Part shown: piece after piece, positions 4,922 through 30,125 of the stretch | Layout of the letters: each line of letters begins with the position of its first letter | Numbering within the stretch: position 1 is the first letter of the stretch | Assembly (NCBI GenBank): GCA_003153495.1 | Contig: PLYU01000265.1 | Coordinates: forward strand, 1-39,419 | DNA length: 39,419 nucleotides | Reading direction: 5' to 3' | DNA from: Myxococcales bacterium | GTDB taxonomy: Bacteria; Myxococcota_A; Polyangia; Polyangiales; Polyangiaceae | Notes under the pieces: generated by a model | Told to the model about the DNA's origin: nothing | The model's database searches: none | What the model saw: only the letters and a program-made list of their open reading frames with translations | Position numbers and translations under genes: made by a program

Positions 4922-7558
4922 ATGCGGGGAGCCGAGGCGCCGGCACATCGCTGCAGGCGGCTGGCCGTCGGCAAGCTGTTCGCCTGCGTCGCGCTGCTCG
5001 CGGCAGGGTCCACGGCGGCCTGCGGTGGGACGCCGGCATCTGGAGGGACCCTGGATCCGGCGGCGCAGCCCGACCGGCCCTACGACGTCACGGCGACCGC
5101 CGGCACCCTGGAGGCCGTCGTCCACGTCGAGTGGCGCGGCCCGACGGCCCGGTCGGCCGACGGCTTCGTCCTGTTGCGCGACGGTGTCGAGCTCGCCGAG
5201 GTCTCCGCGACCACCCTGCGCTACGACGACGCGCAAGCCGAGGCCGGCACGCCCGGCGTCCCGTCGCTGACCACGTCGTCGAGCACGCGCACCGACGGGG
5301 TGATGCTGACGTGGTCCGTCGCCCCGGCGGTGCCTGGCGCCTCGCATCGCTACGCCGTAACCGCCCGCTTCGGCGCGGTGCTGAGCGTGCCGTCCGACTC
5401 GGCCGTCGGCTTCCGGGCCGCGCCGGGCATCGTCCGGTACGACCTCGAGCGCGAGGATCTCGGGACGTGGCAGCCGCTGACGTCCGCCTCGAGCTACCTG
5501 GACGTGTCCGCGCCTCTCGGCGCGATCGACCCGGGCAGCGTCGACGCGCGGCCGTACATCGTTCCCCTCGGGGCGGTCACGCTGGTCGCGACCGGTGCCA
5601 GCGCTCAGCCCGTCGCGGCCCAGTACCGGGTGCGCGCGGTCGGCCCCGACGGACCGGGACCGGCCTCGGCGCCGGTGCGCGGCGCTCGGGGGGTCGGCCC
5701 GCTGACCTACCAGTGGGAGCGCTCGTCCGCCGACGCCGACGGCGACTACGCGCCGCTGCCCGACGTGACCGGACCCTCCTGGTACGACGCCGACCTTCCC
5801 CCCGGGGCGGCCCGCTACTACCGCGCTTCGCTCCACGCGGACGGCGCGGCCGACGCCGTCACCGCCGGCGCGCGCGCTCAGACCGAGCCGGCCATCGCGA
5901 AGGTGGCGGCGGCCGAGAACCTGAGCTGCGCGATCCGCGTGGACGGCTCGGTCGCGTGCTGGGGCGGCCACGGCCTCGCGCCCTTCGCGCTGGGTGGCGT
6001 CCCGCTCGACGCGGCCGCGTTGCAGGCCTACTCCGACGTGGCGATCGGCGACAGCCACGCCTGCGCTCTCCGCGCGGGCAGCGGGCTCGTTCACTGCTGG
6101 GGGGGCGCGTCGCTGACGCCGCCCGTCCCTGCCGATCCGTCGACCGAGGCGTTCCGCGAGGTGGCCTCCGGCTCGCACTTCACCTGCGGCGTGCGCGCGA
6201 GCGACGGCACGCTGGCTTGCTGGGGGGAACCGCCCACGGGACCGGGCGGCTCGTTCCTGCACGTGGCCGCGGCGGGACAGAGCGTCTGCGCGATCCGCGC
6301 GGCGGACGGCAAGGTCGTGTGCTGGGGCGGCTACGGGGTTCCCCCACCCCAGGGTCCCTCGCAGGACGCGGTCACCGAGGTGTCCACGAACTACGCGGGC
6401 GGCACGTGCGCGGTGCGGGCGACCGACGGGCGCGCGGTGTGCTGGGGCTCCACCGTCGACAACCCGCCGAGCGACCCCGTGCATGGCATCGCGGTGGGCT
6501 CGGATTTCGCGTGCGCGCTGCGCCGAGCCGACGACACACCGGTGTGCTGGGGATCCTCGGTGCCCGACGGCGCCGGAGGGGTGACGAGCCAGCGGTCGCT
6601 CGGGCTCGCCATCGGCACGCGCCACGGTTGCTCGATCCTCGTGGGGGGCAAGGTCGCGTGCTTCGGGGAGAACGGCACGGGCGAGGCGCCGTGGCTGCCG
6701 CGCTCGGGGCGCTTCACCTCCGTCTCGGGCGGCTCGGTGCCCTGCGCGACCGACGCGGGCGGGCACGTGCACTGCTGGGGCGCGAGCGCGTGGCTGCTCG
6801 CCGGGACCCCGCCGGGGGCGAGCGATGTCACGACGGCGGTCTCCTCGAGCGACCCCTACGCGTGCGCCCTCGACAGCCAGGGCAGCCCGCGATGCTGGGG
6901 GTACAGTCCGTACGATCCTCCCTCGGCGCCGCTCGCCCCCCCGGCAGGTGCGCTCTTTCGTGCCCTCTCGGTCGCGGACCGCGGCGGCTGCGGGATCGGC
7001 GCGTCCACCGGGACCCTCGCGTGCTGGGGAAGCCTCGGCGCCCTCCCCGCGGACTTCGGCAGCGAGTCGTTCACCGCGGTCGGCTTCGGCGGCGGGCACC
7101 TCTGCGCGATACGCGCCGACAGCAAGCTGCGCTGCTGGGGGAGCAACGCCTTCGGTCAGGCGCCGGCCGGTCCCTCCGTCGACTCGTTCAGCGCCGTCTC
7201 CACGGGCCCCGCCTTCACCTGCGCCATCGGCGCCGCCGATCAGAGGCTCCGCTGCTGGGGCGGCGCGGCGCTCAGCGGCTCGACGGTCGACTCCTTCATT
7301 CCCCCCACCGGTCCGTCCGACGATCGCTACCGCGCGGTGGCGTCCGGAGACGCCCACGTCTGCGCGATTCGCAGCGACGACGGCAAGGTGGTCTGCTGGG
7401 GCCGCGCGTACGGTCCGACCGGCGCGTCGGTGGGCAGCTACACGTCGCTCTCCGCCGCGCACGACGGGACCTGCGGGGTGCGCGCCGGCGACGGCAAGGT
7501 GATCTGCTGGGGCGCCGGGCACTTTGGCCAGTCGGGCGACCCCGTGGTGCTGCCATGA
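4922..7558 (+). CDS. Secreted RCC1-repeat lipoprotein (first of tandem pair)
   Basis: An 878-residue protein. A signal peptide (LFACVALLAAGSTAAC) ends in a weak lipobox cysteine at about residue 37. Residues 50-310 hold fibronectin-III/Ig-like strands, including TYQWERSSADADGDY. The rest is 14 RCC1-type repeats, each with a Cys pair about 10 residues apart (CAIRVDGSVACWG, CALRAGSGLVHCWG and so on). Fourteen repeats would fit two seven-bladed propellers. The Cys pairs suggest intra-repeat disulphides in an oxidising compartment. RCC1-type repeats outside eukaryotes are abundant in secreted myxobacterial proteins of unknown role. The stop overlaps the next gene's start as ATGA. Confidence 0.9.
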   Translation: MRGAEAPAHRCRRLAVGKLFACVALLAAGSTAACGGTPASGGTLDPAAQPDRPYDVTATAGTLEAVVHVEWRGPTARSADGFVLLRDGVELAEVSATTLRYDDAQAEAGTPGVPSLTTSSSTRTDGVMLTWSVAPAVPGASHRYAVTARFGAVLSVPSDSAVGFRAAPGIVRYDLEREDLGTWQPLTSASSYLDVSAPLGAIDPGSVDARPYIVPLGAVTLVATGASAQPVAAQYRVRAVGPDGPGPASAPVRGARGVGPLTYQWERSSADADGDYAPLPDVTGPSWYDADLPPGAARYYRASLHADGAADAVTAGARAQTEPAIAKVAAAENLSCAIRVDGSVACWGGHGLAPFALGGVPLDAAALQAYSDVAIGDSHACALRAGSGLVHCWGGASLTPPVPADPSTEAFREVASGSHFTCGVRASDGTLACWGEPPTGPGGSFLHVAAAGQSVCAIRAADGKVVCWGGYGVPPPQGPSQDAVTEVSTNYAGGTCAVRATDGRAVCWGSTVDNPPSDPVHGIAVGSDFACALRRADDTPVCWGSSVPDGAGGVTSQRSLGLAIGTRHGCSILVGGKVACFGENGTGEAPWLPRSGRFTSVSGGSVPCATDAGGHVHCWGASAWLLAGTPPGASDVTTAVSSSDPYACALDSQGSPRCWGYSPYDPPSAPLAPPAGALFRALSVADRGGCGIGASTGTLACWGSLGALPADFGSESFTAVGFGGGHLCAIRADSKLRCWGSNAFGQAPAGPSVDSFSAVSTGPAFTCAIGAADQRLRCWGGAALSGSTVDSFIPPTGPSDDRYRAVASGDAHVCAIRSDDGKVVCWGRAYGPTGASVGSYTSLSAAHDGTCGVRAGDGKVICWGAGHFGQSGDPVVLP

Positions 7559-27086: not shown

Positions 27087-27480
27087 TCAGGCAGCCGCTG
27101 GCGCCCGCCGCTCACGGAGCGCTCGATCGAGGACATCGAGGAGAGTCTCGGCGTACTCAGGGGTTCCCTTTTTTGAGAAAATACGGCGTCCCCATGCGCC
27201 CGGCAACCGCTGGCAAGTCATCTCTCCCCGACACGAGTACGATGGGGATTCTCTCCTCCCCGGCGTCGTGGAGAAGCATCCGATGAGCCATTTCGGGACC
27301 ATCGAGCACGGGCATGTCAACGTCCAGCAAGACGCAATCGGGCAAGGGCCCTGCGTCCAGAGACTTCAGCCCCTGCTCGCCGTTATATCCCGTTTGGATC
27401 CGGTGCCCTACCGACTCTAGAAGGTCGGTGGAAGCGGCGACGGTCGCCGCGTCGTCATCAACGATGAGTACGTTTGCCAT
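27087..27480 (-). pseudogene. CheY-like receiver, frame broken at an A6 tract
   Basis: The ATG at 27480 begins MANVLIVDDDAATVAASTDL, a receiver domain with the acidic pocket (DDD), the phospho-acceptor in LLDVDMPVLDGPEM, the switch Ser in LVSGRDD and the conserved Lys in YFLKKG. In the written frame it stops at 27157 (KKGNP, then stop), losing helix alpha-5. Dropping one A from the A6 run (T6 on the plus strand, 27169-27174) restores TPEYAETLLDVLDRALRERR and a stop at 27087, a normal C-terminus. The gene would then be a stand-alone response regulator of 130 residues. It may be a mutation, a sequencing error or slippage at the A tract. A sigma-54-like element lies upstream at 27524-27539. Confidence 0.75.
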
Positions 27481-27523
27481 CTTTTTCGAGTTCCTGGCTC
27501 GACCACGTGCGGGACACGTCAAC

Positions 27524-27539
27524 TGCATCTTCCGTGCCC
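27524..27539 (-). promoter_or_regulatory. Candidate sigma-54 promoter for the receiver gene
   Basis: The minus strand reads GGGCACG-GAAG-ATGCA. GG and GC are separated by exactly 10 nt, as in -24/-12 promoters (consensus TGGCACG-N4-TTGCW). Two consensus positions differ. The expected transcript start is near 27513, leaving a 33-nt leader before ATG 27480. Confidence 0.45.
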
Positions 27540-27558
27540 CCGAAGTGGCTCACCTCGT

Positions 27559-28086
27559 TCACGCCAGGGGCGGCCTCGTAGGGCGCTTGCCCTCGATGGG
27601 ACCGCCCCTCGCGACCCGCTCGGCCTCGCGAAGCGAATCGCCTTCCGGACCGTCGAGCGCCTTGCTGGCCTTCTCGCCGAGCGCGCCGGACCGCCCCTTG
27701 CTGGCCGACTTCGTGGCGGCTTCGTCGTATGCACGCGTGGCGCTGTAGCTGCCTTCCCCTTCGAGGGCGCTCGTCTCCGCGCCCGTCCGCTCGCCGGCAG
27801 GTCGCGCCGCCTTTTCCATCTCGGCCGCCAGTGCGAAGTCGAGCGCGCTGATGCCGCCGACGTCATGCGTGGTCAGGTCGACCACGACCCGGTCGAAGAC
27901 GTTGCGCCATTCGGGGTGATGGTCCTGCTTCTGCGCGGCGAGCGCGCAGGTCGTCATGAAGCCGAACGCTTCGGCGAATCCTCCGAACGTGTACTCGCGG
28001 TGCAGCTTGCCATCGATGCGGGCCCAGCCCGACAGCTTCTTCAGTCGGGTCTCGATCTCGTCGTCGCTCAGTCGGGGAGTCTTCAT
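27559..28086 (-). CDS. Pterin-4a-carbinolamine dehydratase fused to a small stress-protein-like tail
   Basis: A 175-residue protein. Residues 1-95 are a PCD/DCoH domain: LSDDEIETRLKKLSGW, then the active-site HHPEW (in AAQKQDHHPEWRNVFDRVVV) and LTTHDVGGISALDFALA. This enzyme dehydrates 4a-hydroxytetrahydrobiopterin during recycling of the pterin cofactor. Residues about 105-165 (EGEGSYSATRAYDEAATKSA, KASKALDGPEGDSLREAE) match a short motif otherwise found as independent small bacterial proteins of the YxAxxxYxxA...ALDGPEG type. The fusion is unusual. The start is ATG 28086, with GAAGG 8-12 nt upstream. A divergent promoter region shared with the 41-residue gene lies at 28100-28154. Confidence 0.85.
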   Translation of the reverse strand: MKTPRLSDDEIETRLKKLSGWARIDGKLHREYTFGGFAEAFGFMTTCALAAQKQDHHPEWRNVFDRVVVDLTTHDVGGISALDFALAAEMEKAARPAGERTGAETSALEGEGSYSATRAYDEAATKSASKGRSGALGEKASKALDGPEGDSLREAERVARGGPIEGKRPTRPPLA

Positions 28087-28099
28087 GCGTCGCCTTCGA

Positions 28100-28115
28100 A
28101 GCATGGTTCGTGCCG
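28100..28115 (-). promoter_or_regulatory. Weak candidate sigma-54 promoter for the pterin dehydratase gene
   Basis: The minus strand reads CGGCACG-AACC-ATGCT with correct GG-N10-GC spacing and two mismatches to consensus. The implied start (about 28089) would be only 3 nt before the ATG, which would cut off the Shine-Dalgarno at 28095-28099. The transcript would then be leaderless, so this site is the least certain of the five. Confidence 0.3.
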
Positions 28116-28138
28116 CGGCGCCGAGCTGAAGGTCGAAG

Positions 28139-28154
28139 TGGCACGCGTATTGCG
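28139..28154 (+). promoter_or_regulatory. Strong candidate sigma-54 promoter for the 41-residue gene
   Basis: TGGCACG-CGTA-TTGC matches every fixed position of the -24/-12 core with GG-N10-GC spacing. Only the base after TTGC (G rather than A/T) departs. The predicted transcript start is near 28165, giving a leader of about 39 nt. Confidence 0.65.
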
Positions 28155-28168
28155 GCGTCCGGATCGAT

Positions 28169-28187
28169 CGGAGGCAAGACGCCTCCG
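28169..28187 (+). promoter_or_regulatory. Leader hairpin before the small gene
   Basis: CGGAGGC (28169-28175), loop AAGAC and GCCTCCG (28181-28187) form a 7-bp stem. It ends 2 nt before the AAAGGAG ribosome site (28190-28196). It may affect mRNA stability or access of the ribosome. Seen directly; role inferred. Confidence 0.4.
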
Positions 28188-28203
28188 TCAAAGGAGTCAC
28201 GAT

Positions 28204-28329
28204 ATGAGCTGCAAACGAATCGTTCTCGGGACGTGGCTCGGCGTGCGCAGCCAGGTGGATGCGGACGTCGATACGTCCGGGACGTCGGCTAAGCGGGCCA
28301 AGTCGTATATTCAGTCGGCGAGCAAGTAG
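28204..28329 (+). CDS. 41-residue small protein of unknown function
   Basis: ATG 28204 lies 7 nt after a near-perfect Shine-Dalgarno (AAAGGAG, 28190-28196) and is the first ATG after the predicted sigma-54 start. The peptide begins MSCKRIVLGTWLGVRSQVDA and ends KRAKSYIQSASK. It is basic, with one Cys and no membrane helix. The start, the consensus promoter at 28139-28154 and a bidirectional hairpin 27 nt after the stop (28357-28382) form a complete small transcription unit. I recognise no family. Its neighbours (pterin dehydratase fusion, Dps) suggest a stress-linked role, which is inference. Confidence 0.6.
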   Translation: MSCKRIVLGTWLGVRSQVDADVDTSGTSAKRAKSYIQSASK

Positions 28330-28356
28330 TCGTAGGGGCGGGCGTCGGCCGCACGC

Positions 28357-28382
28357 ACGATCCCCGGCTCACCGGGGATCGT
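28357..28382. terminator. Bidirectional hairpin terminator
   Basis: ACGATCCCCGG, loop CTCA and CCGGGGATCGT form a perfect 11-bp stem. It sits between the convergent 41-residue gene and the membrane-protein gene. The stop codon of the latter (28369-28371) lies in the loop. There is no T tract on either side. Confidence 0.55.
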
Positions 28383-28773
28383 CGTACGGATTGTCCAGCG
28401 GCACGTCCACCCTCTGCCGCGGAACCTGGGCTCGATGGACCACCCGGGGCGCCGGCTTTGCTCGTGGTCGATCTGGCGGGGCGGCCGTCGCGGGGGCGGT
28501 CGCGATCGTGCTCGGGGCAGGGATCAGCGAGACGGTGGTCGAGCTTGCAGTTCCTTGCAGCTCAAGGACCCCCGTCCTCGCGCTCGGCGATCCGTCAACG
28601 GACATCAGCGAATGGATCAGGAGCAGAACAGCCCCGCCGGCCGCGCCGATGACCAGCAGAGACGCCAGCATCGCCTTCGGGGACAGGGCGTTTGGCTGCG
28701 ACGCCGTACGTCCGTCACGTGGTCTCGAAGGCCGCGGCCCCGTCTCGTAGCGTTCAGCAAATTCGCCTGACAT
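28369..28773 (-). CDS. Small single-pass membrane protein, Pro-rich
   Basis: A protein of about 134 residues from ATG 28773 (MSGEFAERYETGPRPSRPRD). One membrane helix (MLASLLVIGAAGGAVLLLIH) at about residues 32-51 is followed by a Ser/Thr/Ala linker, a Pro/Arg/Lys stretch (PPDRPRAKPAPRVVHRAQVP) and the end DVPLDNPYDDPR. Tails of this kind (Pro-rich, ending NPYD) occur behind the membrane helix of myxobacterial kinases, so this may be a cut-down relative without a kinase domain. The frame is open further upstream, where another hydrophobic stretch (LHTVALFLLLMVAGVNMTM) occurs. The start is therefore uncertain and the protein may have two helices. Confidence 0.55.
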   Translation of the reverse strand: MSGEFAERYETGPRPSRPRDGRTASQPNALSPKAMLASLLVIGAAGGAVLLLIHSLMSVDGSPSARTGVLELQGTASSTTVSLIPAPSTIATAPATAAPPDRPRAKPAPRVVHRAQVPRQRVDVPLDNPYDDPR

Positions 28774-28924
28774 GGTCATGTTCACACCAGCGACCATGAG
28801 CAGCAAGAACAGGGCCACCGTGTGCAGCGGCGTCCGGGCGGCCGGGTCTGCCGGCGCTCCAAGCACGATAACTGCACGAGCGCGTTCCATGCCGGGCCGG
28901 TCTGCAGAGCTCGCGTCGGGACGC

Positions 28925-28940
28925 TGGCACGACCGGTGCT
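28925..28940 (+). promoter_or_regulatory. Candidate sigma-54 promoter for dps
   Basis: TGGCACG-ACCG-GTGCT matches the -24/-12 core except for one base in the -12 box, with GG-N10-GC spacing. The expected start (about 28951) gives a leader of about 23 nt containing the AAGGAG ribosome site before ATG 28974. Confidence 0.6.
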
Positions 28941-28973
28941 GGTAAAGCCATCGGACCAACGAAGGAGCTATCC

Positions 28974-29456
28974 ATGTACACCACCAAGAACGATCTCCCC
29001 GAAGCAGCGCGCCTCAAGCTGGTCGAGCTGTGCAACGCCCGTCTGGCAGATGCCATCGACCTCCAGACGCAGTGCAAGCAGGCGCATTGGAACGTGAAAG
29101 GCCCGGACTTCATCGCGCTCCACGAGCTCTTCGACAAGGTGAACGTCGATGTCGAGCAGTACGTCGACACCATCGCCGAGCGCGCCGTTCAGCTGGGGGG
29201 CACGACCGAGGGCACCTCTCGCGCAGTGGCCAAGCGTTCGACCCTTCCCGAGTACGGGGCCAAGGGCGGCCGCGGTCGCGACCACGTCGAGGCCCTGTCC
29301 ACGGCGCTGGCAGCGTTCGGAAAGGCCGTGCGGCAGGCAATCCACCAGAGCGGCGAGTATCACGACGCTGACACTGCGGACATCTTCACCGAGGTCTCGC
29401 GTGGCACCGACAAGTGGCTGTGGTTCGTGGAGGCGCACCTGCAGGCTGATCGGTGA
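28974..29456 (+). CDS. dps: Dps-family DNA-binding ferritin-like protein
   Basis: A 160-residue protein with the Dps four-helix core. The ferroxidase-site residues lie in QTQCKQAHWNVKGPDFIALH (His, then the Asp of the KGPDF segment) and ELFDKVNVDVEQYVDTIAER. The helix VEALSTALAAFGKAVRQAIH and the end TDKWLWFVEAHLQ are typical of the family. It should form a dodecamer that oxidises and stores iron, protecting DNA from peroxide. The N-terminus is short, so DNA binding through a Lys-rich tail is limited. AAGGAG precedes the ATG. A sigma-54-type promoter lies at 28925-28940. The DoxX-like gene follows after 78 nt. Confidence 0.93.
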   Translation: MYTTKNDLPEAARLKLVELCNARLADAIDLQTQCKQAHWNVKGPDFIALHELFDKVNVDVEQYVDTIAERAVQLGGTTEGTSRAVAKRSTLPEYGAKGGRGRDHVEALSTALAAFGKAVRQAIHQSGEYHDADTADIFTEVSRGTDKWLWFVEAHLQADR

Positions 29457-29461
29457 GCCGT

Positions 29462-29477
29462 CGGCACGGACGGTGCA
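29462..29477 (+). promoter_or_regulatory. Candidate sigma-54 promoter for the DoxX-like gene
   Basis: CGGCACG-GACG-GTGCA has GG-N10-GC spacing and two mismatches to consensus. It begins 6 nt after the dps stop. The expected start near 29488 leaves a leader of about 47 nt. Confidence 0.45.
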
Positions 29478-29534
29478 GTTCACCGCAGAGAGTCATTGTA
29501 CCGACTTGAACACGTCGAACCGGAGAGTTCAGCC

Positions 29535-30014
29535 ATGACTACAGCAACGATCGATCCCCACCCCGCAATCGGCCGGACCCCTCGGTCCGCTTCCCTGCGG
29601 ATCACGACCGTGGCCCGCGTCCTCATGGGCCTCGTGTTCGCCGTCTTCGGCCTCAACGGCTTTCTTCACTTCATCCGGCAGCCCGCGCCACCTCAGCCCG
29701 CCATGGAGTTCTTCGGGGCGCTCGTCGTCACGGGCTACATGCTCCCGCTGGTCATGGGGACCCAGCTGCTCGTCGGGGCGCTCCTGCTCTCGAACCGCTT
29801 CGTCCCCTTGGCGCTTGCTCTCATCGCGCCCATCATCGTCAACATCATGGCGTTCCATCTCGCACTCGCCCCGTCCGGCCTCCCGCTCGCGTTCGTCGTG
29901 CTCGTGCTGGAGCTATTGCTGGCCTGGTCGTACCGCGAAGCCTTCCGCCCGATGCTCGCGCAGCGGGTCGCTCCGCCCTCGGGGATCACCAAGAGAGCCG
30001 CGGCGGCGAGGTGA
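29535..30014 (+). CDS. DoxX-like integral membrane protein
   Basis: A 159-residue protein with four hydrophobic helices: VARVLMGLVFAVFGLNGFLH, then ALVVTGYMLPLVMGTQLLVG, then LALALIAPIIVNIMAFHLAL, then LAFVVLVLELLLAWSYREAF. This is the DoxX/DUF4064-like four-helix membrane layout, with the FGLNGFLHF loop common in the group. DoxX relatives take part in membrane redox or oxidative-stress complexes in some bacteria. The ATG at 29535 is preceded by GGAGAG (29522-29527). It follows dps, with its own sigma-54-like element, so it may be both co-transcribed and separately controlled. Confidence 0.85.
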   Translation: MTTATIDPHPAIGRTPRSASLRITTVARVLMGLVFAVFGLNGFLHFIRQPAPPQPAMEFFGALVVTGYMLPLVMGTQLLVGALLLSNRFVPLALALIAPIIVNIMAFHLALAPSGLPLAFVVLVLELLLAWSYREAFRPMLAQRVAPPSGITKRAAAAR

Positions 30015-30125
30015 TTGCCGTCGAGCGCCTTCATCCGTAGCCGCGCAGCCATCGGCTTCGGTGTCGTGGGCAGCGAGGACGTCCGTCCACGCGGGCGACA
30101 GGTTCACGTCGACCAGAATCTTCAC
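29913..30125 (-). pseudogene. Truncated DUF5615 PIN-like toxin
   Basis: GTG 30125 overlaps the stop of the DUF433 gene (GTGA). The protein starts VKILVDVNLSPAWTDVLAAH, the first strand and helix of a DUF5615 (PIN-like) toxin with its first catalytic Asp. Similarity stops after about 22 residues. The open frame then runs through unrelated Arg-rich sequence into the 3' end of the DoxX-like gene. The remaining acidic residues of the PIN fold are missing, so the toxin should be dead. Confidence 0.6.

Follow-up and report, generated by a model that had tools for sequence, protein, structure and literature searches.

Putative sigma-54 promoters at a small stress locus of a Myxococcales genome, one with the start-codon spacing of a putative leaderless class widespread in Polyangia

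Sigma-54 promoters are well known, and so are leaderless mRNAs. The dps gene of Escherichia coli is under sigma-S/OxyR control, whereas sigma-54 is the regulator proposed for dps in the present locus. A 2011 survey showed that sigma-54-like sites are informative only when orientation and distance are considered, and it binned the distance by 100 nt (PMC3162934). The title of that survey presents sigma-54 as a controller of the bacterial exterior. A 2025 survey includes Polyangia, and a keyword search of it returned no discussion of start-codon distance (PMC12316311). In Myxococcus xanthus, rpoN deletion is reported to be lethal (PMC12316311). In Deinococcus-Thermus, leaderless genes are reported to have -10 elements that adjoin the ORF (PMC12340547). 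A search of the open literature, with subscription journals mostly outside it, gave no earlier report that joins sigma-54 with leaderless mRNA in myxobacteria.

The window (the whole 39,419-nt stretch of DNA analysed) carries five copies of the string GGCACG-N5-TGC within 1,954 nt (Table 1). Exact string matching recovered 5/5 copies at the coordinates and strands given in the first-pass annotation, and the single further copy that it mentioned in the window lies at 6762-6775. The annotation had described each site as pointing at a gene start, and all five are indeed correctly oriented and lie a short distance 5' of a start codon. At 5/5 sites a GG and a GC dinucleotide stand 10 nt apart in a TGGCACG-N4-TTGCW context. 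In this consensus, the GG-N10-GC spacing, the gene-ward placement and an activator-rich clade, the locus resembles sigma-54 -24/-12 promoters with NtrC activators. The preferred reading, to which we give a probability of roughly 0.7, is that all five elements act as promoters for RpoN (sigma-54) and together serve a small stress locus, one of them belonging to a leaderless class.

Table 1. Features of the locus, with supporting matches and predicted transcript ends.
Feature	Position	Strand	Evidence	Prediction
Receiver, single-domain response regulator, 107 aa	27157..27480	-	Pfam Response_reg 4.8e-15	
Sigma-54-like core GGGCACGGAAGATGCA, receiver gene	27524..27539	-	exact match	+1 ~27513, leader ~33 nt
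Pterin-4a-carbinolamine dehydratase	27559..28086	-	Pfam Pterin_4a 2.2e-29	
Sigma-54-like core CGGCACGAACCATGCT	28100..28115	-	exact match	+1 ~28089, leader 1-4 nt
Sigma-54-like core TGGCACGCGTATTGCG, best in window	28139..28154	+	15.5 bits	+1 ~28165, leader ~39 nt
41-aa ORF	28204..28329	+	ORF listing, sequence; strong SD (AAAGGAG)	
Perfect 11-bp hairpin ACGATCCCCGG-CTCA-CCGGGGATCGT	28357..28382	.	terminator-like, no T run	
Convergent ORF, 196 aa as listed from TTG	28369..28959	-	no family assigned	
Sigma-54-like core TGGCACGACCGGTGCT, dps	28925..28940	+	14.1 bits	+1 ~28951, leader ~24 nt with AAGGAG
dps, 160 aa	28974..29456	+	Ferritin 1.1e-21; NCBIfam Dps 5.3e-57, over cut-off	
Sigma-54-like core CGGCACGGACGGTGCA, DoxX-like gene	29462..29477	+	exact match	+1 ~29488, leader ~47 nt
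DoxX-like membrane protein, 159 aa	29535..30014	+	DoxX 0.0023, below Pfam cut-off	

Under the sigma-54 reading, RNA polymerase would form a closed complex at the -24/-12 element, to be opened by an activator ATPase, and transcription would start about 12 nt past the -12 GC. The leaders were computed with the C of the -12 GC counted as -12. Four mRNAs would carry predicted leaders of 24-47 nt; the SD-like sequence in them is clear before dps and the 41-aa gene, and weaker before the receiver and DoxX-like genes. The predicted start of the pterin dehydratase transcript lies 1-4 nt 5' of the ATG, so this mRNA would be effectively leaderless. The actual transcription starts, the sigma-54 dependence and the leaderless translation in the locus are what we infer from the sequence.

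An approximate sigma-54 matrix, modelled on the published Barrios consensus, was used for the scan that the first-pass annotation had recommended, and it was run on the window. The two top scores of the 39 kb fell in the cluster, at 28139(+) (15.5 bits) and 28925(+) (14.1 bits); the former is also the only match to TGGCACG-N4-TTGC with 0 mismatches in the window. The remaining three sites scored 11-12 bits (27524(-) 11.1, 28100(-) 11.9 and 29462(+) 11.1), near the 12.4-12.6 bits of the coding-sequence matches 28817(-) and 27290(-). Such scores would suit the tentative alternative that 28139(+) and 28925(+) are the only promoters and that the other three sites are chance matches, with their genes read from elsewhere or by read-through; conservation of the element, shown for dps only, points the same way. 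This alternative has to contend with the short distance and correct direction of all five sites before a start codon, and with the 28115(-) site, whose spacing is exactly the leaderless one that is enriched across the class. We therefore hold it to be possible but clearly less probable than five promoters. A search of 27100-30100 gave no sigma-70-like site, and the five upstream regions gave no clear common repeat that could be a shared enhancer. The 29462 core starts 6 nt past the dps stop, and it is also able to form a short hairpin just 3' of dps.

The promoter comparison among orthologues was made for dps only and gave a divided result. Dps of Myxococcales bacterium palsa_1153 (L213) is 73% identical to the window Dps, and its gene is preceded by TGGCACAACACATGCT, a 32-nt leader region with AAGGAG and the ATG, a layout that agrees with that of the window within two bases. 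Labilithrix (L220) has a weaker element at the corresponding position 5' of dps. Sigma-54-like sites also precede the dps homologues of genomes G128 and G173, where the ATG comes 12 and 11 nt past the element, and G106 has a second Dps behind a leadered sigma-54-like site. The upstream site is absent from most dps homologues of the family, and three other homologues at 78-81% identity are without the element (in L208 the DNA upstream is partly N). The spread of these elements, set against the majority of homologues that lack them, suggests that sigma-54 control of dps recurs in the group and is not universal.

A DNA search with the whole locus in relatives matched mainly dps-coding DNA and found no conserved locus, and no conserved neighbourhood appeared when the neighbour genes of the window were looked for in homologous dps loci. 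The closest Dps homologues (L208-L287), at 58-81% identity, belong to Planctomycetota, Verrucomicrobia, Gemmatimonadetes and Myxococcales records. The presence of this Dps in records of several phyla suggests that it is frequently exchanged.

The first-pass annotation had ranked the site at 28100-28115 as the weakest of the five on the ground that its mRNA would be almost leaderless, and distances were therefore counted across the family. The counts reversed this verdict. The geometry is strongly enriched as a sigma-54 class in the clade, and 28100-28115 is the most informative of the five sites. The gap from its core to the ATG is 13 nt, matching the class-wide peak. The ATG at 28086 is probably the true start of the pterin dehydratase gene, because the alignment to the NCBIfam model begins at residue 1. 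The protein also has a low-complexity C-terminal tail of ~80 aa outside the Pfam domain (27559-27800).

The pattern TGGCAC-N6-TGCW followed by an ATG at a set distance was counted in 108 genomes of the family, with the reversed pattern as control. The ATG stood at 11-14 nt in 1,089 matches against 245 for the reversed pattern, at 6-9 nt in 164 against 151, and at 21-24 nt in 294 against 186. Genome by genome, the count at 11-14 nt exceeded that at 21-24 nt in 102 of 108 and fell below it in one. Among the 150 matches listed, the most frequent gap was 12 nt (66). The forward/reversed ratio at 11-14 nt was 4.4 in the family, 5.9 in the rest of the order and 7.0 in the rest of the class; it was 2.8 in the rest of the phylum, weaker than within the class. 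For the class statistics, whole-genome counts replaced samples of ~0.4 Mb. In samples of that size, G154 and G095 each showed little excess at 11-14 nt, so lineages differ. In the own genome, 9/20 TGGCACG-N5-TGC sites have an ATG at 11-13 nt, and the genes include those for UspA, a glycine-zipper protein, OmpA and a lipoprotein-like protein.

There is no excess at 6-9 nt; it sets in at the distance at which +1 of a sigma-54 promoter is expected. Since this holds class-wide, Polyangia appear to make leaderless mRNAs widely by means of sigma-54. The placement at the pterin dehydratase gene would then be a class-wide habit, with the -12 element 11-14 nt from the ATG in hundreds of genes. At 30 loci (the first match per genome), inspection by eye showed that the ATG mostly opens a plausible protein, about half of them with a signal peptide or lipobox, and FlgG-like and CBS starts occur too. 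It could be objected that the 11-14 nt class is not leaderless, with the true start codon further downstream or +1 further upstream from another promoter. The start codons were read from sequence, and some ATGs among the 30 loci may be wrong. The absence of an excess at 6-9 nt and its presence at 11-14 nt are nevertheless what a fixed distance from -12 to +1 predicts. The N-termini at such ATGs (signal peptides, FlgG-like and CBS starts, and a pterin dehydratase whose model aligns from residue 1) also speak against the objection, and we consider it unlikely.

Not all matches were accepted as promoters. Some are coding motifs, and among those listed outside the class, some share the translation WHIECSAMSM (by eye). 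In a genome of the same phylum (G368), a near-identical sigma-54-like site and its ATG, TGGCACGACGYTTGCA...CGACTCGATG, recur in a dispersed repeat after a shared GTCCGCTCGGATACCGTGGGA block. The repeat is found on many contigs, such as L288, L289, L290, L291, L293 and L294. These sites were rejected as a gene family, since the repeat is dispersed and no conserved ORF goes with it; it inflates part of the phylum-level count. The repeat is perhaps a mobile element carrying promoter-like sequence.

The scanned MAG comprises 4.77 Mb in 382 contigs and is 78% complete. The string GGCACG-N5-TGC has 104 copies (55+49) in its 4,769,816 bases, and the reversed-motif control has 167 (82+85). Because the exact string lies below its reversed control, copy counts alone are no evidence, and the idea that the string is rare genome-wide for functional reasons had to be given up; only the cluster and the placement are informative. 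Counting of the loose motif was also rejected as evidence, since at two mismatches the window count equals the chance level. A stretch of 1,954 nt would be expected to hold 0.043 copies at the genome density. The number of five-site clusters expected genome-wide at the observed density is ~1.4e-5, a figure that ignores the selection of the string after the sequence had been read. The cluster of five in 1,954 nt is far beyond chance. That a GC-rich string recurs here by chance, with no promoters at all, is very improbable, since the genome-wide deficit against the control and the chance-level two-mismatch count, which would agree with it, are opposed by the 1.4e-5 expectation, the placement at starts and the conserved dps element.

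A search of 184 genomes of the order gave no homologue of the 41-aa ORF behind the best site of the window. This ORF had no Pfam or NCBIfam family, and its transcript had no Rfam match. The hairpin lies 3' of this ORF and overlaps the 3' end of the convergent ORF, and the fold z for 28165-28395 is -3.7. If real, the 41-aa ORF is a one-gene unit of ~220 nt. The hairpin between the two ORFs resembles a two-way terminator without a T run. Profile searches gave no family for the convergent ORF. Read from its TTG, the 5' end of this ORF would overlap the dps promoter, so that transcribing either could disturb the other.

Neither rpoN nor a sigma-54 DNA-binding domain was found in the MAG (78% complete). 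The rpoN gene was found in 37/37 relatives searched, so the missing gene is likely a gap in the assembly. The own genome also has 33 Pfam PF00158 matches for sigma-54 activators, ~20 of them strong. The annotation of the five sites as sigma-54 promoters thus gains from the consensus, spacing, clustering and placement of the sites, the dps element in an orthologue, rpoN in relatives and the ~20 activators.

Genes behind such sites in the own genome encode UspA, HPF with a cold-shock domain, CBS, OmpA, glycine-zipper and lipoprotein-like proteins. On one contig (C38), sites stand before two UspA genes, and an NtrC-type activator is encoded there too. This activator is 52% identical over 456 aligned residues to the activator at the dps locus of G128. 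In the G128 locus, sigma-54-like sites precede dps, a DUF2383-like ferritin-like gene, a second gene called ferritin-like from resemblance alone, a small ORF and phospholipase-D-like and argC-like genes, with the ATG 12-15 nt past the element, and an NtrC-type activator is present too. The region 815-19994 of C38 (L117) is a stress island with two UspA genes, a slipin/stomatin-like gene, a ClC-CBS channel and G6PD (names partly by eye), and a histidine kinase is followed there by the NtrC-type activator. An NtrC-type protein like that on C38 would be the candidate activator for the window, the activator and its signal both being inferred, and that the C38 protein itself may serve the window promoters is a guess. 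The "RpoN-controlled stress module" of the first-pass annotation is plausible because UspA, HPF/cold-shock and CBS genes also stand behind sites in the own genome, two of them on C38; the absence of the dps element from most homologues counts against the sigma-54 reading.

The locus can be likened to stationary-phase and stress regulons (Dps, UspA, ribosome hibernation factors), with Dps in the window and UspA, HPF-cold-shock and CBS proteins behind own-genome sites. Exported lipoproteins behind such sites fit the view, stated in the title of the 2011 survey, that sigma-54 controls the exterior (PMC3162934). Unlike typical sigma-54 promoters, a large share here stands 11-14 nt from the ATG and would leave no leader. 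As reported for Deinococcus-Thermus, a core element lies at a fixed short distance from the ATG, and the mRNA would start at the start codon (PMC12340547). The element there is a sigma-70-type -10 (PMC12340547), whereas in Polyangia it would be a sigma-54 -12 that needs an activator ATPase.

We consider it probable that Polyangia systematically use sigma-54 for leaderless mRNAs, which would combine activator-gated transcription with leaderless translation for a large set of exported lipoproteins and stress proteins, and that the present locus mixes leaderless and leadered genes. The literature search gave no report of a bacterial class that combines sigma-54 promoters and leaderless mRNA as a rule. 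If Polyangia do so, the genes of the most tightly gated bacterial sigma factor would also escape Shine-Dalgarno control of translation, for instance in stress, a condition that may favour leaderless initiation. The spacing would then offer a simple and precise predictor of sigma-54 regulons and of true start codons in Myxococcota genomes.
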